Origin: Flavobacteriaceae bacterium CG2_30_34_30
GTDB taxonomy: Bacteria; Bacteroidota; Bacteroidia; Flavobacteriales; Flavobacteriaceae
DNA length: 64,000 nucleotides
Assembly: GCA_001873105.1 (NCBI GenBank)
Contig: MNYN01000067.1
Span: 1 to 64,000 of the forward strand
Reading direction: 5' to 3'
Below the pieces are notes generated by a model. That model worked only from the letters and a program-made list of their open reading frames with translations. It was not told the DNA's origin and made no database searches. Positions 47,296 to 60,309 of the stretch are shown piece by piece. How positions within the stretch are numbered: position 1 is the stretch's first letter; each line of letters begins with the position of its first letter. The translations under genes and the position numbers were made by a program.

Positions 47296-50200
47296 TTGAG
47301 GACGAAAAATTATTTTTATAGAAATATTCAGGGGATCTATTTATTTTTAATTTTCAGTTTAACTATTTTGAGTTTTTCTTCAAGAGCGCAAGTGCCTAAT
47401 CCAGAAGAAAACCCCGAAATTATTCAGGATTCTACTAAAACAGGACATACCATGGGTCAGATGATACTGCCCAACCCTCCAAGTATTAAAGACCTTTATA
47501 CCTATGACCCTATTACCGATAGGTATATCTATAATCAAGTAATAGGTTCCTTAAACATTTCAAATCCTCTAGTCCTTACCCCTCAGGAATATCAGGATTT
47601 AATAATGAGGGAAGAAATGAAGCGCTATTTTAAAGCTAAGATAGATGCTGTAGATGGAAGGAAGGAAGGTGCTGAAGAAGAACAAAAAAATCTGCTTCCA
47701 AGCTTTTATGTGAATTCCAACTTTTTTGAAACGGTATTTGGCGGCAATGTAATCGAAGTCATTCCGCAAGGATCGGTGGAAATGGATTTAGGACTTTTGT
47801 ACACAAAACAAGATAATCCCTCTTTTTCACCCAGAAATAGATCTAACCTTACTTTCGATTTTAACCAACGCATCAATTTAAGTTTGCTTGGAAAAGTTGG
47901 AGAACGTCTTCAAATTACCGCAAATTATGATACCCAATCCACATTCGATTTTCAAAATCAGATAAAGTTAGAATATACCCCAACCGAAGATGACATCATT
48001 CAAAAAATTGAAGTTGGTAATGTGAGTATGCCATTAAATAGCTCCCTAATTCAAGGTGCGCAAAGTCTTTTTGGAGTAAAAACCATTTTACAATTTGGCA
48101 AGACACGAGTAACCGGAGTTTTTTCAGAGCAAAAATCAGAAACCAGAAGCGTTGTTGCGGAAGGAGGAGGAACCATCAATGAGTTTGATGTGTTTGCCCT
48201 AGAATATGATGAGGACAGGCACTTTTTCTTGGCCCACTATTTTAGAGACAAATATGATCAAGCCCTAGAACAATACCCTTTTATTAATTCCAATGTGCAA
48301 ATTACTAGAGCTGAAGTTTGGGTTACAAACTTATCTAATAATACCGAAGGAGTAAGAAATATTGTAGCGCTTCAAGATATTGGAGAATCAAATCCGGCAA
48401 AAATTGGATTAAACTTTCCACCGGGCGGATTTATAAATAGACCTCCGGGATCTTTTCCTGACAATGGTAATAACGATTTTAATCCCTTTGGTATCGGAGG
48501 CGGCGCCCAATCGGTGCTTAATGAAAATATTAGAAACATTTCTACCGTTCAATCTGGTTTTGGAGGTGTGCAAGTAAGTGAAGGAAAAGATTATGCAACT
48601 CTTGAAAACGCAAGACGGTTGCTGCCTAATGAATATACCATCAATAGTCAACTTGGATATATATCCTTAAATCAAAGGCTTAATAACGACGAAATACTTG
48701 CCGTTGCCTTTCAATATACAATTAATGGCAGGGTATTTCAGGTAGGTGAATTTTCTAACGATGGAGTAGAAGCGACAGGTGAATTTGACCCTTTGAACCA
48801 AACCGGAGGAGAGTCACAAAACCTAGTAGTAAAACTTTTAAAAAGCAATATTGTTAGCGTTAATCAACCAATTTGGGACTTGATGATGAAAAATATATAC
48901 AATCTAGATGCCTTTCAACTAGAAAGAGACAATTTTAGATTGAATATTTTATATACAGACCCATCTCCCTTAAATTTTATTACTGCTGCACAGGCATCTC
49001 CTAATTTTCCTGCAACTCCTCTACCCGAAGATGTGGAACAAACAACACTTTTAAGAGTGTTTAATTTAGATAGGTTAAACTTCAACAACGACCCACAACA
49101 GGATGGGGATGGTTTTTTCGATTTTTATCCCGGAATTACAGTAGATGCTCAAAATGGTCGAGTCATTTTTACCACTGTTGAGCCATTTGGTGAATATCTT
49201 TTTAAAAAGTTAGCTAGTCCAGCCGCTTCTGAAAATTATAATCTTCCTTCAACTTATAATGCTAATCAAAATAAATACGTGTACCGCTCGCTTTACCGTT
49301 CCACAAAAACTGTTGCAGAACAGGAAGATAGCGATAAAAATAAATTCCAATTAAAAGGTAGTTATAAATCAAGTGGTTCTGATGGTATTTCCATAGGCGC
49401 TTTTAATGTACCACAAGGCTCTGTAACTGTAACTGCCGGGGGTCGTGTTTTAGTAGAAGGAGTTGATTATACGGTCAATTATCAATTGGGTAGGGTACAA
49501 ATTTTAGACCAAGCTCTACTAAACTCAAACACACCCATAAGTATAACCACTGAAAATAATGCAGTGTTTGGACAACAAACCAAGCGATTTACCGGTTTAA
49601 ATGTGGAACATCAGTTTAATGAAAATTTTCTGGTAGGGGCAACCTATATTAACCTAAATGAACGCCCATTAACTCAAAAAACTAATTTTTCATCAGAACC
49701 TATTAACAATACTATATTAGGATTAAATGCTAACTATTCCACAAAGGTTCCTTTTCTAACCAGATTAGTAAATAAATTGCCGAATATTGATACCGATGTA
49801 GAATCTAACATTGCTCTTAGAGGGGAGTTTGCTTATTTGCTTCCTGGTTCACCAAAAGTTGCCGATTTTGATGGCAAAACAACGGTTTATGTTGATGATT
49901 TTGAAGGTTCTCAAACCTTATTAGATATTAAAGCACCATTATCTTGGGCATTAGCTAGTACACCTATTGGTTTTGGTGGCGAACTTGAAAATGACAATCT
50001 AGCATACAACTATCAAAGAGCAAGACTTGCTTGGTACACCATAGACCCGGTTTTTTATAGTACACAACGTCCTTCTGGAATTACTGATGACGACTTGTCA
50101 TCCTACGCCACCAGACGGCTTTTTATCAATGAAATTTTCCCCGATACCGATATTGTACAAGGGCAAACACAAGCCTTATTCTCCCTAGACCTTTCCTATT

Positions 50201-53200
50201 TTCCCGGTGAGAGAGGCCCTTATAATTTTAATCCTGAAACAGGAGGAACTAATAATCTTCCTAACCCTGCATCCAGATTTGGAGGGATTACTAGAGCCAT
50301 TTCAACTACAGATTTTGAAAGATCTAATGTAGAATATATCCAATTTTGGGTTTTAGATCCTTTTATTTACGATGAAAACGCAGGAAATAATGGGGGGACA
50401 TTAAGTTTTAACCTAGGAAATATTTCAGAAGATATTCTTAAAACAGGAAGAAAACAATACGAAAATGGTTTACCAAGAGATGGAGGAACAGATGGAACTG
50501 TAGCTACCGCTTATGGGAAAGTACCTACTAATCAATCTTTAATTTACACTTTTGACACCGAGGGTCAGGAAAGAACAAATCAAGATTTAGGACTAAATGG
50601 TGTCAATGATGTGGAAGAAGCAGCTCTTTTTCCATTATTTGGAGGACTTCCCGATCCGGCAGGCGATAATTACACCTATTTTTTACAAGCAGAAGGAAAT
50701 ATAGTGAATCGATACAAAAATTATAACGGTACACAAGGTAACTCACCCGTTGAGGTTACAAATACAAACAGAGGTTCTACAACACTTCCTGATGTGGAAG
50801 ACTATAATCGTGATAATACAATGAACACGGTAAATAGTTATTTTGAATACAACATCAATTTATTCCCAGGAATGAATGTTGAAAACAACCCTTTTATCAC
50901 AGATGTAAGAGAATTAGAAGTGAACACACAAAATAACGATGTTCAAGCTGTAAGATGGGTGCAATTTAAGGTGCCATTAAGCAATCCAACACGTGCTGTA
51001 AATGGTATTTCTGACTTTAGATCTATTCGATTTATGCGAATGTATTTAACCGGTTTTGAACAAGATATTACCTTTCGTTTTGGAACATTAGATTTGGTAA
51101 GAGGCGATTACAGAAGATTCACACAAAGTTTAAATCCCTCCGGAACTTTACCTGCTAACAGCAACACCACATTTGATGTCGAATCTATAAGTATTGAAGA
51201 AAATTCAGGTAGACAACCTATTCCTTATGTGCTCCCTCCAGGAGTGGAACGTGAAGAATTAATTAATAATAATTCGAACATCCGCCAAAATGAACAATCG
51301 CTTGCTTTACGAGTTTGTGAATTAGAACCGGATGACGCAAGAGGGGTGTTTAAAAATTATAACATCGACATGCGTCAATATAAAAATTTAGAATTATTTA
51401 TTCATGCAGAGTCCTTATTAAATCAAATACCTTTAAATAATGGCGATTTAATTGCCTTTATACGATTAGGAAATGACCTTACTCAAAATTTCTACGAAAT
51501 AGAAATACCTTTAAATCCTACTTCTTTTGGTGCCACAAATCCAGAGGAAATTTGGCCGATTGAAAATAGATTAAATCTTCCACTAGACCTATTACAAGAA
51601 GTAAAATCTAGAGTACTTTCCAATCCCGGAGAATTTGATCTTAGCGTTGTTAACTATTTTGAGGAAGCAGAATTAGAAGGAGGAACTTCAGGGCCGGAAA
51701 ACGATATGCGAATAGGTATCAAAGGAAACCCAAGCTTTGGAGCTGTAAGAACCATAATGATTGGTGTTAAAAACGGAATAAATTCCAATGTTTGCGGGGA
51801 AGTTTGGATTAATGAACTCCGCTTATCGGAACTTAAAAATCAAGGAGGTTGGGCAGCCGTTGCAAGTATGGACGCAAACTTTGCCGATTTTGCCACAATA
51901 AGTGCAACCGGAAGAAGAAGCACAGTAGGTTTTGGCTCTATTGAACAAGGTCCAAACGAAAGAAGCCTTGAAGATGCAAAACAATATGATATTGTCACTA
52001 ATTTAAATGTCGGCCAATTACTTCCAAAAAAATGGGGAATACAAATTCCATTTAATTATGCACTTGGTGAGGAGCTGATTACGCCGCTTTATGATCCAGA
52101 ATTTTTAGATATTGAGCTAGATACCAGATTGAATAATACAGAAGACCCTGCGGAAAGAAAACTGATTAAGGACCAATCTGTTGATTACACAAAAAGACAA
52201 AGTATAAACTTTATAGGGCTAAGAAAAGAACGAACAGGGGATAAAAAACCACAACCCTATGACGTGGAAAATTTAACACTTTCTTATTCTTATAACCAAG
52301 TGGATCGACATAGTTTTGAAATTGAAGAAGCACTAGAACAAAATGTTAGAGTTGGGGCAACCTATAATTTTAGCTTTACTCCAAAACCAGTTGAACCATT
52401 TAAAAAGAATGATTCTATTTTTAGAAGTAGTTACTGGCAACTTCTTAAAGATTTTAATTTTAATTATTTGCCTGCAAATATTTCTGCAAGTTCTAATATT
52501 ATCAGGCAATATAATGAACAAAAATTTAGAGAAATTAACCCACTTCCAGGTAACATTGGACTTCCTACCTTGTACCAGCGCAATTTCCTATTTGATTGGC
52601 AATATACCATAAATCATAACCTCACCAAGTCCTTGCGTTTTAACTTCAACTCCTCAAATAATAGAATTGTAAAGAATTTTATAGAAGATAATGGGGTAGT
52701 AAATAATGAAATTGGCGTTTGGGATGGCTTTTTTGATGTTGGTGAACCTAACCAACATTTTCAATCGCTTCAGGTTAATTATGACTTGCCATTCAGTAAA
52801 GTGCCGTTTCTAAAATTCATCAGAGCAACCTATTCCTATACAGGTAATTACCAATGGCAAAAAGGAAGTGAACTTTTTAGAAATTTAGAAGTGGAGTTAG
52901 CCGATGGTACTACTGGAGTTTTTGACCTTGGTAATACCGTTCAAAATTCTAACACACACAGTATCAACTCTACATTAGATATGAATAATTTGTATCGATA
53001 TATCGGTTTAACTAAAAAACGACCTTCATTAAAAACTTCAGGCGGTGGAGCAGATGGTGGCGATGGAGACGCAAGAGGGGGAGATGCAGGTGGTGGTAAA
53101 GGGGATTTAAAAGGAGGTGCAGCCGATTCGAAAACAGACTCAAAAGATGGTGAAGCTGCCGGATTTACAAACAAGGAAGGTGGAGGTGGAGCCGGTGGTG

Positions 53201-54597
53201 GAATATCACCAACAACTCAACCTAGTGGGATGTCATTAAATACTGGAGAAAAAGCATATAATACCTTTATTGGTTTATTAACTTCTGTAAAAAGAATTCA
53301 ATTAAACTACCAAGAAAATAATGGAATTTTCTTGCCAGGATATACGCCATCCGTAGGTTTTGCAGGGAGTTTAAAACCCACAACTGCATTTACTTTTGGT
53401 GGTCAAGGTGAAATTAGAAATCTTGCAGCAAGAAATGGATGGCTTACCCTGTATCCTGAATTTAATGAACAATATACAGAGGTTAAAAACCAACAATTTG
53501 ACTTCCAAACAAATATTGAATTAATACCGGACCTAAAAATCGATTTGAACGGAAACAGAATGTACTCTGAATCCTATGCTGAAAACTATATCATTAACGA
53601 AGGACAATATAGGTCGTTAACCCCTAATACTTTTGGTAATTTTAATATTTCAACTATTTTAATAAAAACGGCATTTAAAGAAAGTGGAGATTTATTTTCA
53701 GAAACCTTTGAAGATTTTAGAGCAAACAGAATAACTGTTGCTAATAGATTAGCACAGGAATTCTATGGCACTACAGATTTTCCGGTAGACGCCGATGGTT
53801 TTCCTGAAGGGTTTGGAAAAACCAATCAAGCAGTATTATTGCCTGCATTTTTATCGGCCTATGAAGGAAGTGACCCTGGAAAAGTTAAAACAGGAATACT
53901 GAGAAACTTCCCATTACCCAATTGGGATCTCCGTTATACAGGTTTAATGAAGATAGATTGGTTTAAGAAAAATTTTAAACGATTCTCCATACAGCACGGA
54001 TATAAAGCCGGTTACACCGTAAATCAGTTTCAAACCAATTTAGATTTTGACACAGAAAATCCTGGGGCGTTAGACCAAGCAGGTAATTTTAAAAACAAAA
54101 TATTACTGGCTAATGTTAATCTAATAGAACAATTTAGCCCACTAGTAAAATTGGACTTCGAAATGCAAAATTCTATAAGAATTTTAACCGAAATAAAAAG
54201 AGACCGAGCGCTTTCATTAAGCTTTGCAAATAATTTAGTAACAGAAATCCAGGGAATGGAATACGTAGTAGGTTTAGGATATCGAATAAAAGATTTACGA
54301 ATAGGGACAAATTTTGGAGGAAATCAACAAGTGATGAAAAGTGATTTGAACTTTAAATTAGACCTTTCCCTCAGAGATAATAAAACCATAATACGGTACT
54401 TGGATATTGAAAACAATCAAATAACAGCAGGACAAACTATTTATGGCATTAATTTTATAGTAGATTATGCTTTAAGTAAAAACCTAACCGCATTATTTTA
54501 TTACGACCATACTTTTTCAGAGTTTGCCATCTCCACGGCATTCCCCCAAACCACCATACGAAGTGGTTTTACATTGCGATATAATTTTGGAAACTAA
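47296..54597 (+). CDS. sprA: SprA, outer-membrane translocon of the type IX secretion system
   Basis: A 2433-residue outer-membrane protein; SprA/Sov forms the giant beta-barrel pore of the type IX secretion system, needed for gliding and for export of surface enzymes and adhesins. It has a signal peptide (about 1-31, SFSSRAQ), repeated SprA-family domains and a C-terminal strand ending in RYNFGN. The start is TTG at 47296, 3 bases after ruvA; the signal peptide begins there and the next in-frame Met is about residue 52, so TTG is needed. A Gly/Asp/Lys-rich low-complexity insert occupies about 1916-1975. Firm call. Confidence 0.95.
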   Translation: MRTKNYFYRNIQGIYLFLIFSLTILSFSSRAQVPNPEENPEIIQDSTKTGHTMGQMILPNPPSIKDLYTYDPITDRYIYNQVIGSLNISNPLVLTPQEYQDLIMREEMKRYFKAKIDAVDGRKEGAEEEQKNLLPSFYVNSNFFETVFGGNVIEVIPQGSVEMDLGLLYTKQDNPSFSPRNRSNLTFDFNQRINLSLLGKVGERLQITANYDTQSTFDFQNQIKLEYTPTEDDIIQKIEVGNVSMPLNSSLIQGAQSLFGVKTILQFGKTRVTGVFSEQKSETRSVVAEGGGTINEFDVFALEYDEDRHFFLAHYFRDKYDQALEQYPFINSNVQITRAEVWVTNLSNNTEGVRNIVALQDIGESNPAKIGLNFPPGGFINRPPGSFPDNGNNDFNPFGIGGGAQSVLNENIRNISTVQSGFGGVQVSEGKDYATLENARRLLPNEYTINSQLGYISLNQRLNNDEILAVAFQYTINGRVFQVGEFSNDGVEATGEFDPLNQTGGESQNLVVKLLKSNIVSVNQPIWDLMMKNIYNLDAFQLERDNFRLNILYTDPSPLNFITAAQASPNFPATPLPEDVEQTTLLRVFNLDRLNFNNDPQQDGDGFFDFYPGITVDAQNGRVIFTTVEPFGEYLFKKLASPAASENYNLPSTYNANQNKYVYRSLYRSTKTVAEQEDSDKNKFQLKGSYKSSGSDGISIGAFNVPQGSVTVTAGGRVLVEGVDYTVNYQLGRVQILDQALLNSNTPISITTENNAVFGQQTKRFTGLNVEHQFNENFLVGATYINLNERPLTQKTNFSSEPINNTILGLNANYSTKVPFLTRLVNKLPNIDTDVESNIALRGEFAYLLPGSPKVADFDGKTTVYVDDFEGSQTLLDIKAPLSWALASTPIGFGGELENDNLAYNYQRARLAWYTIDPVFYSTQRPSGITDDDLSSYATRRLFINEIFPDTDIVQGQTQALFSLDLSYFPGERGPYNFNPETGGTNNLPNPASRFGGITRAISTTDFERSNVEYIQFWVLDPFIYDENAGNNGGTLSFNLGNISEDILKTGRKQYENGLPRDGGTDGTVATAYGKVPTNQSLIYTFDTEGQERTNQDLGLNGVNDVEEAALFPLFGGLPDPAGDNYTYFLQAEGNIVNRYKNYNGTQGNSPVEVTNTNRGSTTLPDVEDYNRDNTMNTVNSYFEYNINLFPGMNVENNPFITDVRELEVNTQNNDVQAVRWVQFKVPLSNPTRAVNGISDFRSIRFMRMYLTGFEQDITFRFGTLDLVRGDYRRFTQSLNPSGTLPANSNTTFDVESISIEENSGRQPIPYVLPPGVEREELINNNSNIRQNEQSLALRVCELEPDDARGVFKNYNIDMRQYKNLELFIHAESLLNQIPLNNGDLIAFIRLGNDLTQNFYEIEIPLNPTSFGATNPEEIWPIENRLNLPLDLLQEVKSRVLSNPGEFDLSVVNYFEEAELEGGTSGPENDMRIGIKGNPSFGAVRTIMIGVKNGINSNVCGEVWINELRLSELKNQGGWAAVASMDANFADFATISATGRRSTVGFGSIEQGPNERSLEDAKQYDIVTNLNVGQLLPKKWGIQIPFNYALGEELITPLYDPEFLDIELDTRLNNTEDPAERKLIKDQSVDYTKRQSINFIGLRKERTGDKKPQPYDVENLTLSYSYNQVDRHSFEIEEALEQNVRVGATYNFSFTPKPVEPFKKNDSIFRSSYWQLLKDFNFNYLPANISASSNIIRQYNEQKFREINPLPGNIGLPTLYQRNFLFDWQYTINHNLTKSLRFNFNSSNNRIVKNFIEDNGVVNNEIGVWDGFFDVGEPNQHFQSLQVNYDLPFSKVPFLKFIRATYSYTGNYQWQKGSELFRNLEVELADGTTGVFDLGNTVQNSNTHSINSTLDMNNLYRYIGLTKKRPSLKTSGGGADGGDGDARGGDAGGGKGDLKGGAADSKTDSKDGEAAGFTNKEGGGGAGGGISPTTQPSGMSLNTGEKAYNTFIGLLTSVKRIQLNYQENNGIFLPGYTPSVGFAGSLKPTTAFTFGGQGEIRNLAARNGWLTLYPEFNEQYTEVKNQQFDFQTNIELIPDLKIDLNGNRMYSESYAENYIINEGQYRSLTPNTFGNFNISTILIKTAFKESGDLFSETFEDFRANRITVANRLAQEFYGTTDFPVDADGFPEGFGKTNQAVLLPAFLSAYEGSDPGKVKTGILRNFPLPNWDLRYTGLMKIDWFKKNFKRFSIQHGYKAGYTVNQFQTNLDFDTENPGALDQAGNFKNKILLANVNLIEQFSPLVKLDFEMQNSIRILTEIKRDRALSLSFANNLVTEIQGMEYVVGLGYRIKDLRIGTNFGGNQQVMKSDLNFKLDLSLRDNKTIIRYLDIENNQITAGQTIYGINFIVDYALSKNLTALFYYDHTFSEFAISTAFPQTTIRSGFTLRYNFGN

Positions 54598-54625: not shown

Positions 54626-55006
54626 ATGAAAATACCTTCAAATTTAAAGTACACTAAAGACCACGAATGGGTAAAAATTGAAAATGACATCGCTATTGTC
54701 GGGATAACCGACTTTGCTCAACATGAGCTAGGTGACATTGTGTATGTAGAAGTAGAAACGCTAAATGAAACCCTAGATGCAGAAGAAGTTTTTGGCACAG
54801 TAGAAGCAGTAAAAACGGTTTCTGATTTATTTTTGCCGCTTTCCGGTGAAATAATTGAGTTGAATACTCTTTTAGAAGCAGAGCCTGAAAAAGTGAATAC
54901 CGATCCTTATGGAGATGGATGGATGGTTAAGGTTAAATTTTCTGATGCTAGTGAATTAGAAAATTTATTAGATGCAGAAGCATATAAGAAGCTTATTGGT
55001 GCATAA
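54626..55006 (+). CDS. gcvH: Glycine cleavage system H protein
   Basis: A 126-residue lipoyl carrier of the glycine cleavage complex. The lipoylated residue is Lys63 in [16 protein letters not shown], within ESVKA-like context, and [14 protein letters not shown] at the start and [17 protein letters not shown] near the end are typical. It follows sprA by 28 bases, an arrangement conserved in flavobacteria although the functions are unrelated. Its 3' end overlaps the start of the VanZ-like gene. Confidence 0.96.
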
Positions 55007-55385
55007 ACTTTTACTCCCTTTCGCACTTTTATATACCTTTTTTTTGACTTTCGGCTCTTTTATCGAGCCGGAACAATTTCCCAAATTGGGAAGATCAATT
55101 ACAGATAAAGGGATACATTTTATGGGATATGCTATTTTAGTTTTCCTATGGAGTGTGACTGTATATTTCAATAGTAAAAAAAATATATTTATAATGGTGG
55201 TTTTAAAAACCGCATTTTTTGCTCTTGTTTATGGTATAATTATTGAAGTGTTACAGGAGCAATTAACAAGTAACAGAGATGGGGATATTATGGATGGTTT
55301 TGCTAATTTATTGGGAATATTATTTGCTGTAATTTTACTGTATTTTATCCAACCTAAATTAATTAAATTAAAAAATAGAAATTAA
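54999..55385 (+). CDS. VanZ family membrane protein
   Basis: About 128 residues with four transmembrane helices and the VanZ-like pattern: first helix ending [14 protein letters not shown], then [43 protein letters not shown]. Relatives in other phyla are linked to teicoplanin tolerance, but in flavobacteria the role is unknown. I prefer the GTG at 54999 (8-base overlap with gcvH) because it starts just before the hydrophobic helix; the ATG at 54972 would overlap gcvH by 35 bases. Confidence 0.8.
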
Positions 55386-55438: not shown

Positions 55439-56158
55439 ATGGAGCCTAAAAAAAATCCAAAAGCAGATTTAAGTCGCAGAAGTGTGCTATTCTTTCAGCT
55501 TGGAATGATTATTATGTTGTTTGTTACTTGGCAAGCTATCGAATGGAAATCATACGATAGGTCGGCTATTGATATTGGTCAACTTAATTTAAACGATGAG
55601 GAAATAGAAGATATTCCATTAACCCAACAGTTAACGCCACCACCACCTCCACCACCTCCACCACCAGCACCCGAAGTAATTGAAGTGGTAGAAGACGAAA
55701 AAGAAATTGAAGAAACAATAATTGAATCTACCGAAAGCAAACAAATTGAAAAAATTGTAAAAATTGAGCATATTGAAGAAGCTGTTGAAGAAATAGCAGA
55801 TGTGCCTTTTGCAGTTATTGAAAATGTTCCAATCTATCCTGGTTGTGAAAATTTAAGAAATAATGACGAAAGAAAGAAATGTATGTCTGAAAAAATTGAC
55901 GCATTTGTGAAGAGGAAGTTTAATTCTGAACTTGCAAACGATTTAGGACTTGATGGAAGACAAAGAATTTCTGTGCAGTTTAAAATTGATAATAAGGGAA
56001 ATGTAGTAGATGTAATGGCAAGAGCACCACATCCAAGATTGGAAGCAGAAGCTAAAAAAGTGATTAGCGAATTACCAACAATGACTCCCGGAAAACAAAG
56101 GGGAAAAGCTGTTGGAGTACTTTATTCACTACCCATCATTTTTCAAGTAGAAAATTAA
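55439..56158 (+). CDS. TonB-like energy transducer, first copy
   Basis: A 239-residue protein with an N-terminal anchor helix (about 15-37), a run of ten prolines (about 67-76) followed by a Glu/Ile-rich periplasmic spacer, and a C-terminal TonB-C domain (about 130-239; VPIYPGCENLRNNDERKKCM, RISVQFKIDNKGNVVDV, LPIIFQV). It would couple the proton motive force to TonB-dependent receptors. The VPxxPGCE start of the domain, with two cysteines, is the Bacteroidota form. Ended by the terminator at 56180-56214. No ExbB/ExbD nearby. Confidence 0.9.
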   Translation: MEPKKNPKADLSRRSVLFFQLGMIIMLFVTWQAIEWKSYDRSAIDIGQLNLNDEEIEDIPLTQQLTPPPPPPPPPPAPEVIEVVEDEKEIEETIIESTESKQIEKIVKIEHIEEAVEEIADVPFAVIENVPIYPGCENLRNNDERKKCMSEKIDAFVKRKFNSELANDLGLDGRQRISVQFKIDNKGNVVDVMARAPHPRLEAEAKKVISELPTMTPGKQRGKAVGVLYSLPIIFQVEN

Positions 56159-56179
56159 TTAAAATACCTATTTAGTAAA

Positions 56180-56214
56180 AAAGACCATCTGCTTTTGGCG
56201 GATGGTCTTTTTTT
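56180..56214 (+). terminator. Terminator after the first TonB-like gene
   Basis: 13-bp stem AAAGACCATCTGC (56180-56192) / GCGGATGGTCTTT (56198-56210) with one T-G pair, loop TTTTG, followed by a T run. Confidence 0.85.
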
Positions 56215-56262
56215 GGCACTCTTATTGATTTATTTGTGGTAGTAACCATTAAATCAATTAAG

Positions 56263-57051
56263 ATGAAAAATTTCAATAAATTGTTAGATATCTTCAAAAA
56301 TAATGAAGGTTCTATGACGAAAAATAAAAAATCGACAAACATCCGTTTTAATTCTACTTTATTTTTTCAAGTTGGTTTAATCGTTAGCATTACTTTGGTG
56401 GCTCTGATTATAAATGCTTCTTATGGTGAATTAGAAAAATCATCTGCTTTGCCGTTTCCAAATACTTTTGAAGAGCCATTTTATCTTAATGATTTTGTAA
56501 TCGTAAAGCCAATAATCCCAGAAATTCCAGCAGAAAAAAAACTAGTTACAAGAAAATTAATTACGGATAAGGTTCTTGTTATTGACAAACCTATTGCAAA
56601 TAAACCAGAAGAGCCAATTTATACAACTCCTGTTGAATTGCCTGTCAATACTCCTGTAGTGAAAGACCCATCTCCAATTGAAGAGGAGCCAACTTCCTAT
56701 TCTATGATAGGAGTGGAGCGTGTTCCTGTTTTTCCAGGCTGTGAATCACTTGATAATAATAAAGAAAGAATAGCATGTTTGTCAAAGGAAATAGGTATTA
56801 TCATTAATAGAAAATTTGATAAGAATCTAGCTTCAGAGTTAGGTTTAGAAGGCGAGCAACGCATCTATATAAGTTTTACCATAAACAAATTAGGAAAAGT
56901 AGCCGATGTGAAAGTGAGAGCACCACATCCAAGATTAGAAAAAGAAGCCTTTAAAGTACTACAATATGTACCTAAAATGATTCCCGGTATGCAAAGCAAT
57001 AAAAATGTAGATGTATTGTTTAGTTTGCCTATCATTTTTAACATTCAGTAA
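56263..57051 (+). CDS. TonB-like energy transducer, second copy
   Basis: About 262 residues, a paralogue of the previous gene. It has an N-terminal anchor helix (about 38-58), a Pro/Glu/Lys-rich spacer without a long proline run, and a TonB-C domain (about 150-262; VPVFPGCESLDNNKERIACL, RIYISFTINKLGKVADVKVRAPHPRLEKEAFK). The APHPRLE motif is identical in both copies. ATG 56263 is preferred to a GTG 27 bases upstream. Preceded and followed by terminators, so it is its own transcript unit. Confidence 0.88.
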   Translation: MKNFNKLLDIFKNNEGSMTKNKKSTNIRFNSTLFFQVGLIVSITLVALIINASYGELEKSSALPFPNTFEEPFYLNDFVIVKPIIPEIPAEKKLVTRKLITDKVLVIDKPIANKPEEPIYTTPVELPVNTPVVKDPSPIEEEPTSYSMIGVERVPVFPGCESLDNNKERIACLSKEIGIIINRKFDKNLASELGLEGEQRIYISFTINKLGKVADVKVRAPHPRLEKEAFKVLQYVPKMIPGMQSNKNVDVLFSLPIIFNIQ

Positions 57052-57073
57052 AAGATTTACAAATAGAATTTTT

Positions 57074-57110
57074 AAAACCATTCGCTAACAACGGGTGGTT
57101 TTCTTTTTTT
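57074..57110 (+). terminator. Terminator after the second TonB-like gene
   Basis: Stem AAAACCATTCG (57074-57084) / CGGGTGGTTTT (57092-57102) with two T-G pairs, followed by TTCTTTTTTT. Confidence 0.75.
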
Positions 57111-57169
57111 CAAGATTATAAATTCACAAAAAAACGTATCTTTCCCCTAAATTATTTAGATTTTAGTTT

Positions 57170-59272
57170 ATGAGAAATCTTTCCCTTTTCATGCTTACGC
57201 AACTTTTTACCATTAGTTTATTTGGGCAGCAGCAAGTGTCTGAATTTGAAAAGTATCCTGTCTTCCCAACCTGTCAAAACGAAAATTTTGGAAATTTAAA
57301 AAATTGTTTTAATACTACCTTACAGACATTTATTTTTGAAAACTTCAAAACACCCAAAATTGTAGATGAGGAAAATTACCAAGGTGAAATCGCTGTTTTT
57401 TTTGAGGTAAACAAAGAAGGAAGTTTTAAACTTCTTTATACAGAAGCCATTTATGCAGATCTAAAAGAAGAAATTCAGCGTGTTTTTGATTTGTTACCTC
57501 AAATAAAACCTGCAACCTATAATTCTAGACCCACTTATGTACAGTTTACCATGCCTATTAAAATTCCATTGCAAAAACCCATTTTTGAAGATAGTAAAGA
57601 CCAAAAACTACTTGCCTCAAACCAATTAAATCCAAAGCAATCAGAAGAATATGATGCCATTAAAAATCTTGGATATACCAATGAAAAGTACACTAGTCAG
57701 ATTAATATTCCATTGTCGCATCAAGAATATGCTCGATTTGATAAGGTCATCAACCAAGTAGGAACCAACACCCATACCGCGCAAAAACCATTTTTGTATC
57801 AAACGGTAAATACTTATCAAAATTTAGAAGAAAGAGATGTACAATTATTCAAAAATAAGACCTCATGGCTTGGTAGAAAATTTTGGAATGAACATATGGT
57901 AGCTTTTAAAGGCGATAATTATTGGTTTACTATAGATCCCGGAGTAGATGTACAAGTAGGGAAAGATTTTGATAGCAAAAAAAATTCTACTTATAACAAT
58001 ACAAGACTTGCTGTAATTCAAGGAGGATTGGGTAAAAAATTAAATTTTCATGCAGTGCTTTATGAAAGTCAAGGAAGGTTTGCAGATTATTTTAACCGAT
58101 ATGCAGAATCTATTGCAGCAGATGGAGGAGGAAATCCTGCTATCATACCGGGAATGGGGATTGCAAAATCTTTTAAATCTGATTCCTATGACTATCCTGT
58201 GGCAACGGGCTATTTGTCCTATAGCCCCAATAAAATGTTTAATATTCAATTTGGCAATGGGAAAAACTTTATTGGGGATGGTTATCGTTCTTTATTGTTA
58301 AGTGACGTTGCAAGTCCACATCCATATTTAAAATTAAGCACCACTTTCTGGAAAATAAAATATACCAATACGTGGATGTCTTTGCGCGATGTTAGACAAG
58401 AAGCTACTATTGATGGCGCATTCACAACAAAATATATGGCAACACACTATTTAAGCTATAACCTATCTAAGCGATTAAACATTGGGCTTTTTGAAAGTGT
58501 TTTATGGGACAATAGTAACAATAGAGGAGTAGATATAAATTATTTAAATCCAATTATTTTTTATCGTGCTATCGAATTTTCTACAGGGCCAAGGTCTGGA
58601 AATGCACTTATTGGGTTGAGTGGAAAATATAAATTTTCAAATCAAATAAATGCCTATGGGCAAATGATTATTGATGAATTTTCAAGTGGTGATATTTTTG
58701 GTGGCAAAAAAAGTTGGAAAAACAAAGTAGGTTTTCAAATAGGAGCTAAATATTATGAACCCTTTGGAGTAAAAAATCTATACCTACAGACAGAATACAA
58801 TAGAGTAAGGCCATATACTTATTCGCATAATACCATTATATTAAATTATGGGCATAATAACCAATCTATGGCTCACCTTTGGGGTGCAAATTTTAGCGAA
58901 TTCATTGCCATTGCTCGTTATGAAAAAGGAAGAGTTTTTGGGAGTGCTAAATTAATATTTGGAAAACGTGGGTTTGATTTTAACGATGACACCGACACGT
59001 TCAACTACGGAGGAAATATATTCAGAGACGAAAGAGACCGTCCTTTTGATTTTGGAAATGAAGTAGCACAAGGCAACAAAACCAGTATCTTTCATGGCGA
59101 ATTTCAAGCAGGATATCTTATGAATCCCTCCACAAATTTAAAGGTATATGCTAGTCTGATTTACAGAGATTTTAACCCACAGGTTAATACTGCAACCGAA
59201 TTTAAAGACACCACCACTTGGCTAAACTTTGGCATTAGAACCGATTTGTTTAACTGGTATTATGATTTTTAG
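57170..59272 (+). CDS. remB: RemB-like gliding motility outer-membrane protein
   Basis: A 700-residue exported protein (signal peptide about 1-20, LFGQQQ). An N-terminal TonB-C-like domain (about 25-135; YPVFPTCQNENFGNLKNCF, GEIAVFFEVNKEGSFKLLY, FTMPIKIPL) leads into a long region rich in aromatic, alternating strands typical of an outer-membrane beta-barrel (about 200-700; WLGRKFWNEHMVAFKG, ending NWYYDF with a terminal Phe). This matches what I recall of flavobacterial RemB, a cell-surface gliding protein. The barrel could also be related to capsule-assembly Wzi-type proteins. It is next to the two TonB-like genes and shares their domain. Confidence 0.7.
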   Translation: MRNLSLFMLTQLFTISLFGQQQVSEFEKYPVFPTCQNENFGNLKNCFNTTLQTFIFENFKTPKIVDEENYQGEIAVFFEVNKEGSFKLLYTEAIYADLKEEIQRVFDLLPQIKPATYNSRPTYVQFTMPIKIPLQKPIFEDSKDQKLLASNQLNPKQSEEYDAIKNLGYTNEKYTSQINIPLSHQEYARFDKVINQVGTNTHTAQKPFLYQTVNTYQNLEERDVQLFKNKTSWLGRKFWNEHMVAFKGDNYWFTIDPGVDVQVGKDFDSKKNSTYNNTRLAVIQGGLGKKLNFHAVLYESQGRFADYFNRYAESIAADGGGNPAIIPGMGIAKSFKSDSYDYPVATGYLSYSPNKMFNIQFGNGKNFIGDGYRSLLLSDVASPHPYLKLSTTFWKIKYTNTWMSLRDVRQEATIDGAFTTKYMATHYLSYNLSKRLNIGLFESVLWDNSNNRGVDINYLNPIIFYRAIEFSTGPRSGNALIGLSGKYKFSNQINAYGQMIIDEFSSGDIFGGKKSWKNKVGFQIGAKYYEPFGVKNLYLQTEYNRVRPYTYSHNTIILNYGHNNQSMAHLWGANFSEFIAIARYEKGRVFGSAKLIFGKRGFDFNDDTDTFNYGGNIFRDERDRPFDFGNEVAQGNKTSIFHGEFQAGYLMNPSTNLKVYASLIYRDFNPQVNTATEFKDTTTWLNFGIRTDLFNWYYDF

Positions 59273-59415: not shown

Positions 59416-60309
59416 TTGGAAATCATTAAATTGCAAACTGCACAAACAAACTTATTCAGAGACTTTGCTGAAATCACTAAAATGCGGCTATCTATTAGCG
59501 TTGTATTTTCTTCTTTAGCAGGATATTTATTAGGTGCCGAAACAATAAATGTGTTTACTTTAATATTATTAGCTTTTGGCGGCTATTTAATGGTTGGAGC
59601 TTCCAATGCATTTAATCAGATTATCGAAAAGGATTTAGATGCCTTGATGCACCGCACAAAAAACCGTCCTATTCCTGCAGGAAGAATGTCAGTAAACACC
59701 GCATTTGTTATTGCCACTATATTCACAGTTTTAGGAATTGGAGTGTTATACAGTATAAATCCAAAAACGGCTATGTTTGGTGCTATCTCCATATTTATGT
59801 ATGTGAGTTTATATACCCCATTAAAAACCAAAACACCCCTTTCAGTTTTTGTAGGAGCTTTTCCCGGTGCAATACCGTTTATGTTAGGATGGGTGGCAGC
59901 TACAGGAAACTTCGGAATAGAAGCTGGAACTTTATTTATGATTCAATTTTTCTGGCAATTTCCGCATTTTTGGGCAATTGGCTGGTTTTTATATACCGAT
60001 TATAAAAGAGGCGGCTTTTTTATGCTTCCCACAGGAAAACAAGATAAAGGCACCGCAATTCAAGTAGTATTATATACCATTTGGACTGTTTTAGTTTCTT
60101 TAATTCCAGCTTTTGGCGTTACAGGAAAATTCTACATTACTCCAATATCTGCAATTATTGTTGGTTTCATTGGTGTTTGGTTTTTATATGCAGCATTTAC
60201 ATTGTATAAATTAAAAACCGAAATTGCAGCAAAAAAATTAATGTTGGTGAGTGTTTCCTACATAACATTGCTTCAAATTATATACGTTTTAGATAAATTT
60301 ATAAGATAA
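59416..60309 (+). CDS. ctaB: Protoheme IX farnesyltransferase (heme O synthase)
   Basis: A 297-residue UbiA-family membrane prenyltransferase that adds farnesyl to heme b for the heme a/o of the oxidase. The first aspartate-rich motif is NAFNQIIEKDLDALMHRTKNRPIPAG (about 65-95), the second LYTDYKRGGFFMLP; about eight helices. The start is TTG at 59416, with no ATG in frame ahead of the conserved EITKMRLSISVVFSS. The stop overlaps the next ATG by one base (TAATG). Firm. Confidence 0.94.
   Translation: MEIIKLQTAQTNLFRDFAEITKMRLSISVVFSSLAGYLLGAETINVFTLILLAFGGYLMVGASNAFNQIIEKDLDALMHRTKNRPIPAGRMSVNTAFVIATIFTVLGIGVLYSINPKTAMFGAISIFMYVSLYTPLKTKTPLSVFVGAFPGAIPFMLGWVAATGNFGIEAGTLFMIQFFWQFPHFWAIGWFLYTDYKRGGFFMLPTGKQDKGTAIQVVLYTIWTVLVSLIPAFGVTGKFYITPISAIIVGFIGVWFLYAAFTLYKLKTEIAAKKLMLVSVSYITLLQIIYVLDKFIR

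Follow-up and report, generated by a model that had tools for sequence, protein, structure and literature searches.

The window, i.e., the whole stretch of DNA analysed here, comprises 64,000 nucleotides (positions 1 to 64,000 of contig MNYN01000067.1, assembly GCA_001873105.1) of Flavobacteriaceae bacterium CG2_30_34_30, whose genome is available as 88 contigs totalling 2.54 Mb. Its list of open reading frames (ORFs) contains, on the plus strand throughout, sprA, gcvH, a VanZ-like gene, two tonB genes (tonB1 and tonB2), a remB-like gene, ctaB and cytochrome oxidase genes. The remB-like gene, whose closest named relatives belong to Gilvibacter, Ulvibacter and Aequorivita, is the main subject of this work. 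Its product (hereafter RemB) carries an N-terminal domain homologous to the C-terminal domains of both neighbouring TonB proteins, placed in front of a predicted outer-membrane barrel. The gene sits a few genes downstream of sprA, as expected for RemB. In F. johnsoniae (Fjoh_1657) and F. psychrophilum (FP2117) remB lies four genes after sprA (Fjoh_1653 and FP2121; PMC4572689), a spacing that we find where a single tonB is present (sprA, gcvH, vanZ, tonB, remB). Orthology to Fjoh_1657 is deduced from gene order and naming. The three genes and the parts of RemB are as follows.

55439..56158, plus strand: tonB1, with one putative N-terminal membrane helix and a proline-rich spacer (both by inspection) and TonB_C at about 55817-56149 (Pfam TonB_C, 1.5e-7)
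56260..57051, plus strand: tonB2, with one putative membrane helix and TonB_C at about 56713-57045 (Pfam TonB_C, 8.8e-8); start uncertain, alternative GTG at 56236
57170..59272, plus strand: remB-like gene, 700 residues, with signal peptide, TonB-C-like domain, linker, helical region and 18-strand outer-membrane barrel (ORF, structure model, orthologues)
57170..57229, plus strand: signal peptide, residues 1-20, without a lipobox and with Q20 almost invariant (sequence inspection; at the equivalent position ahead of the barrel, homologues lacking the N-domain have a signal peptide of their own)
57248..57565, plus strand: TonB-C-like domain, residues 27-132, alpha-beta-beta-alpha-beta (homology, structure models, Foldseek)
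57272..57307, plus strand: codons C35 to C46, the cysteine pair common to RemB, tonB1 and tonB2 (invariant in 57/57)
57590..57682, plus strand: predicted disordered linker, residues 141-171 (model confidence about 40)
57683..57886, plus strand: predicted helical region, residues 172-239, at the site of the Wzi periplasmic helical bundle, holding an HTASKP-type motif (structure model; N-termini of homologues lacking the N-domain)
57920..59242, plus strand: predicted barrel of 18 strands, residues 251-691, Wzi superfamily (structure model, PDB matches, profile comparison)

The N-terminal domain of RemB

The N-terminal ~110 residues of RemB (RemB-N) and the C-terminal domains of the tonB1 and tonB2 products are homologous. 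BLAST matches residues 24-143 to tonB1 with E=2e-11 and to tonB2 with E=1e-9, the alignment scores being 16.7 and 14.4 standard deviations, respectively, over 2000 shuffles. TonB proteins of other genomes match full RemB across residues 26-140 (lowest E 1e-17). The Pfam TonB_C model recognises tonB1 at 32.2 bits and tonB2 at 32.9 bits (cutoff 24.6). Neither TonB_C nor Wzi was returned for the full-length RemB of the window in Pfam and NCBIfam scans, which gave only a chance capsid match (E 0.11); isolated N-domains of RemB orthologues match TonB_C in 52 cases out of 57 (best 3.1e-7).

The AlphaFold (AF2) model of the domain alone, computed from RemB sequences only, has a predicted local distance difference test score (pLDDT) of 94.0, a predicted template modelling score (pTM) of 0.86 and the order helix-strand-strand-helix-strand. 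All of its top 15 PDB matches in Foldseek are TonB-type C-terminal domains (TonB, FusB, HasB; best E 8e-4), so structure prediction yielded the TonB-type fold and not another one. PDB searches by sequence gave weak matches only, including TonB at E 0.15, whether RemB, its barrel or its profiles served as query.

A preliminary description of this DNA, made from the letters alone, had reported a TonB-C domain in each of three successive genes, in the last of them attached to an outer-membrane barrel, and the homology is confirmed by BLAST, shuffles, Pfam, the model and Foldseek. Of the shared features that it listed, one fits loosely. The P-x-F-P start, invariant or nearly so in 57 RemB N-domains, as well as C35 and C46, are present in RemB, tonB1 and tonB2; the cysteine pair of RemB likely forms a disulfide. 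The GxxxxxFxx[ND]KxG strand is literal in RemB, but tonB1 and tonB2 have two extra residues before F and tonB1 reads DNKG. The motif is not needed for the homology of the three domains.

In TonB and TolA a membrane helix binds the motor, a spacer follows, and the C-terminal domain grips its target by strand addition (PMC12204202). Hydrophobic N-terminal stretches SVLFFQLGMIIMLFVTWQAIEW and STLFFQVGLIVSITLVALIINASY are found in tonB1 and tonB2 (seen by inspection only). RemB has neither the inner-membrane helix that binds an ExbBD-type motor nor the periplasm-spanning spacer: its signal peptide is followed by the domain at once, and its C-terminal part is the barrel. RemB resembles TonB (PF03544 TonB_C; 5lw8 of H. 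pylori, 6i97 of P. aeruginosa) in the fold and homology of the C-terminal domain. It differs from TonB in having this domain at the N-terminus, ahead of an outer-membrane barrel, and in lacking both a membrane anchor and a proline-rich spacer. Export without an inner-membrane anchor, already proposed earlier, agrees with the signal peptide devoid of a lipobox and with a barrel ending in F.

The barrel and its kinship with Wzi

The full RemB model (AF2, mean pLDDT 74.7) has a disordered linker at residues 141-167, short helices at residues 172-239 and 18 long strands at residues 251-691, the barrel reaching the C-terminus, where the protein ends in an aromatic residue (F). The HTASKP-type motif of the helical region marks the place where homologues lacking the N-domain (N-less homologues) begin. 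Wzi is a lectin of the outer membrane with a helical plug on its periplasmic side (PMC3791409); its E. coli structure, PDB 2ynk, has the top template modelling scores (TM-scores, 0.41/0.62), coverage and identity among the 50 PDB hits listed for the RemB model. Searching 60 genomes of the order with PF14052 (Caps_assemb_Wzi) gave five hits, four of them at known positions of RemB homologues, one above the curated cutoff. The RemB profile aligns with the Bacteroidota PF14052 profile over 457 columns (P 3e-15), compared to P 0.22 for the control, the SprA C-terminal region. PDB matches of the model, recovery of homologues by PF14052 and the profile-profile alignment together place the predicted RemB barrel in the Wzi capsule-lectin superfamily, as a divergent branch.

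RemB shares with Wzi the 18-strand barrel, the helical N-terminal plug, profile-level kinship and the occurrence of homologues in polysaccharide loci. Unlike Wzi, it has an extra periplasmic TonB-C domain and adjoins sprA instead of lying in a capsule locus, and its polysaccharide binding is predicted. EpsX/AlgE-type export barrels also have 18 strands and are tied to polysaccharide pathways (PMC9601211), but they have no helical plug and no TonB-C domain and are a weaker fold match than Wzi.

The combination of a TonB-C domain with a Wzi-type barrel is a new architecture built of known parts and found in one family. Use of a TonB-type domain from the outer-membrane side is an arrangement that we did not find in the literature examined, and neither a Wzi nor a TonB-C assignment of the F. 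johnsoniae or F. psychrophilum RemB was found in the accessible literature.

Distribution, gene order and origin

The TonB domain on the RemB barrel is found only in Flavobacteriaceae. RemB with the N-domain is encoded in 79 of the 121 genomes of this family (split over contigs in 2 of them), RemB without it in one (G120), and 41 genomes have no RemB. In other families of the order RemB matches start at about residue 172-200 or later and belong to frames of about 530-590 residues. Class-wide (Bacteroidia) the RemB-type barrel occurs in 181 of 197 genomes, and outside Flavobacteriaceae most of the strong matches start at or near the beginning of the barrel model. In the N-less homologues a signal peptide lies a short way ahead of the helical region. 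No TonB-C domain was found on RemB-type barrels outside Flavobacteriaceae, either in 21 N-less proteins or in 15 long frames from 11 regions.

The fused form has a single origin: in the trees the fused barrels make up one group (Shimodaira-Hasegawa-like approximate likelihood ratio test, SH-aLRT, 81) and the fused N-domains one clade with a long stem (support 98/99, 119 columns). This fits a single gain of the TonB-C domain, followed by several losses of the remB gene. The preliminary description had treated the RemB domain as a member of a family duplicated locally together with the tonB genes; this is not supported by the tree, where the RemB clade stands apart from the TonB proteins of the locus.

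RemB-N is placed, weakly (53/82), beside stand-alone exported TonB-C proteins. The latter (~143 residues) resemble RemB in that the TonB-C domain directly follows the signal peptide and differ from it in having no barrel. Fusion with a gene of this kind is a plausible, if unproven, origin of RemB-N. A recent copy of tonB1 or tonB2 was also considered as its source and is rejected on the basis of the tree, the deep position of the clade being weakly resolved with 119 columns.

The genome under study has a stand-alone exported TonB-C protein of its own (143 residues, G000:C37, L289:2647-3078), which adjoins thymidylate synthase and matches RemB-N strongly. Similar genes are present in family genomes L290-L294 and L296, some of them with a second such gene directly after, and in L298, from another family, the gene lies within the sprA-tonB block itself. 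On another contig of the same genome (G000:C56) a BlaR1-type M56 peptidase has a C-terminal TonB-C domain and is followed on the same strand by a 163-residue protein weakly similar to RemB-N (E 7e-7; L299:3116-4462 and 2465-2956 for the pair).

The remaining genes of the conserved block in the window are listed below; the gene at 59416..60309 we take to be ctaB.

47296..54597, plus strand: sprA (type IX translocon), first gene of the block (synteny; homologous sprA in 57/57 further genomes searched)
54626..55006, plus strand: gcvH, kept in the block, 3' end overlapping the next ORF (ORF; synteny)
54972..55385, plus strand: VanZ-like membrane protein, kept in the block (Pfam VanZ 1.2e-5, under the curated cutoff; synteny)
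59416..60309, plus strand: presumably ctaB, protoheme IX farnesyltransferase, downstream limit of the block (synteny)

The order sprA-gcvH-vanZ-tonB(-tonB)-remB is kept in nearly all of the 40 family genomes compared, the exceptions being L049 (upstream part not recovered), L055 (no recognised tonB) and L074. Among 80 loci from named genomes, 62 read exactly sprA-gcvH-vanZ-tonB-tonB-remB-ctaB, 9 have a single tonB, 4 are minor variants and the remaining 5 are short or cut contigs. The gcvH and VanZ-like ORFs as called overlap by 35 bases (54972-55006), and overlap or abutment of gcvH and vanZ recurs in relatives. In one locus (L048:11881-12729, remB orientation) the second tonB is contained in two ORFs, as if broken, next to an intact remB.

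The tonB genes stay beside sprA whether remB is present or not and hence are not a remB device. Families without the fusion have sprA-gcvH-vanZ-tonB(-tonB)-ctaB with no remB in between. A second tonB is commoner with remB (34 of 38 genomes versus 7 of 17 without it; p 3.5e-4, uncorrected for kinship). The idea that tonB2 exists for the sake of remB was rejected, since a second tonB also occurs without remB and in other families.

N-less remB adjoins polysaccharide genes, namely those for a WecA-type transferase, a CapD/FlaA1 epimerase (9 loci), exosortase XrtF (8 loci), glycosyltransferases and Wzy_C. In family f6 (L185, L189, L190, L192, L193, L195, L198) N-less remB is part of a conserved set, in which the upstream CapD/FlaA1 epimerase gene overlaps or abuts it, and XrtF with its associated protein follows. 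In family f7 (L191, L196 and L199 from G126, G150 and G140) the polysaccharide genes end in N-less remB-ctaB-cox. Two of these genomes, G126 and G150, have sprA-gcvH-tonB, the run of polysaccharide genes and N-less remB-ctaB-cox on the same contig and strand, remB starting ~11 kb past the end of sprA, so that a gene of the type IX translocon is near a polysaccharide cluster. The compact tonB-tonB-remB order may be what remained after the intervening polysaccharide genes had been lost.

Proposed role and alternatives

The class-wide Wzi kinship and the polysaccharide gene neighbours put surface polysaccharide first, not a force path. Of the three TonB parts RemB retains only the target-gripping domain, which is most simply a docking module, and the missing motor-binding helix argues against a motor part. 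RemB can probably dock to a periplasmic component and cannot itself carry energy. Putting these together, we propose, with a probability of roughly 0.55, that RemB is a Wzi-like barrel of surface polysaccharide equipped with a TonB-C docking module, which was gained once in Flavobacteriaceae and is not part of a motor.

In the proposed mechanism, the outer loops of the barrel would hold or shape surface polysaccharide and the helical bundle would plug its periplasmic mouth. In an ancestor of Flavobacteriaceae a TonB-C-type domain would have been inserted once between the signal peptide and the plug, so as to hang in the periplasm via the flexible linker. Like other TonB/TolA C-terminal domains, RemB-N probably grips its partner by beta-strand addition; candidate partners are an outer-membrane receptor, a polysaccharide-export (OPX) protein, another TonB domain or the cell wall. 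Through such docking, the polysaccharide barrel would be tied to some structure of the periplasm, be it fixed or moving.

A role of RemB in gliding would rest on the remB literature. Other rem genes encode polysaccharide-export components. The non-gliding F. rivuli has no remA, remB or sprB (PMC4572689), and RemA, which has a lectin domain, is involved in gliding (PMC12618676). RemA-type adhesins could work against polysaccharide that RemB holds, and this would link RemB to gliding of the RemA/SprB type. So far remB has been catalogued among adhesin-like gliding genes and given no molecular role, and the Wzi placement gives it a testable job, holding polysaccharide, which fits the lectin domain of the gliding adhesin RemA (PMC12618676). 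Owing to its single origin next to sprA, the fusion can be cleanly tested by deletion in a laboratory strain. Highly speculative is an "inverted TonB", in which the domain fixed to the outer membrane would grip a strand of a moving or proton-driven periplasmic component and let the type IX/gliding machinery carry or brake the polysaccharide-holding barrel. If true, it would provide a physical link between the motor and the surface slime of gliding cells.

Several points weigh against a polysaccharide barrel with a docking module. The outer loops of the barrel are modelled at low confidence and the overall model is middling; porins and AlgE likewise match the barrel model among the PDB hits, and the window RemB alone does not reach the Pfam Wzi model. 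For RemB-N, no partner and no TonB-box-like peptide has been identified. In a published table remB is listed as 'adhesin-like' (PMC4572689). Finally, at least two OPX (Poly_export) genes are present in 22 of 25 RemB-bearing and 6 of 27 RemB-less genomes (Fisher 1.7e-6), a difference that is not significant in the kinship-aware comparison (4 independent pairs). RemB-less genomes mostly have one OPX gene or none, which is suggestive of a second OPX protein going with RemB.

The link between energy transduction and gliding that had been suggested for this locus would require RemB-N to pair with the C-terminal domains of TonB1/TonB2 or to take their target, so that proton-driven TonB movement acts on the barrel and thereby on gliding. 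TonB domains can dimerise, and the TonB-C fold of RemB-N agrees with such pairing, as do the tonB-tonB-remB order kept in most genomes and the commoner second tonB. The transduction itself is weakened because RemB is not anchored itself and has neither the motor-binding helix nor the spacer by which TonB/TolA are defined; moreover, the tonB genes keep to sprA irrespective of remB, and the RemB domains are distant from the locus TonB proteins in the tree. We consider this link unlikely.

Decidedly unlikely, in our opinion, is a role of RemB as the barrel in an EpsX/AlgE-like composite exporter of polysaccharide, docked by its TonB-C domain to a short OPX protein of the periplasm. The best fold matches of the barrel include AlgE, OPX proteins of Flavobacteriaceae are mostly short (250-310 residues), remB-bearing genomes usually have at least two of them, and OPX/barrel pairs have been described (PMC9601211). 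However, the helical plug and the sequence kinship point to Wzi, which anchors rather than exports, and most short OPX proteins of Bacteroidetes are reported to carry a helix at the C-terminus and not to be coupled to a barrel (PMC9601211).

The TonB-C domain could also do no more than steady the barrel, as a module for folding or for cell-wall binding without a specific protein as partner. Its mean identity of 45%, lower than the 63% of the barrel, agrees with such a passive part. The invariant cysteines and the core of nearly invariant residues in 57 RemB N-domains, as well as the presence of the domain in all full-length RemB of the family examined except that of G120, make it decidedly improbable.

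Last, a type-IX-secreted surface adhesin, as suggested by older tables where RemB stands as adhesin-like beside RemA and SprB (PMC4572689), is very improbable, given that no type IX sorting domain is among the NCBIfam matches of RemB, that its barrel model has a C-terminal aromatic residue and that it is kin to Wzi.

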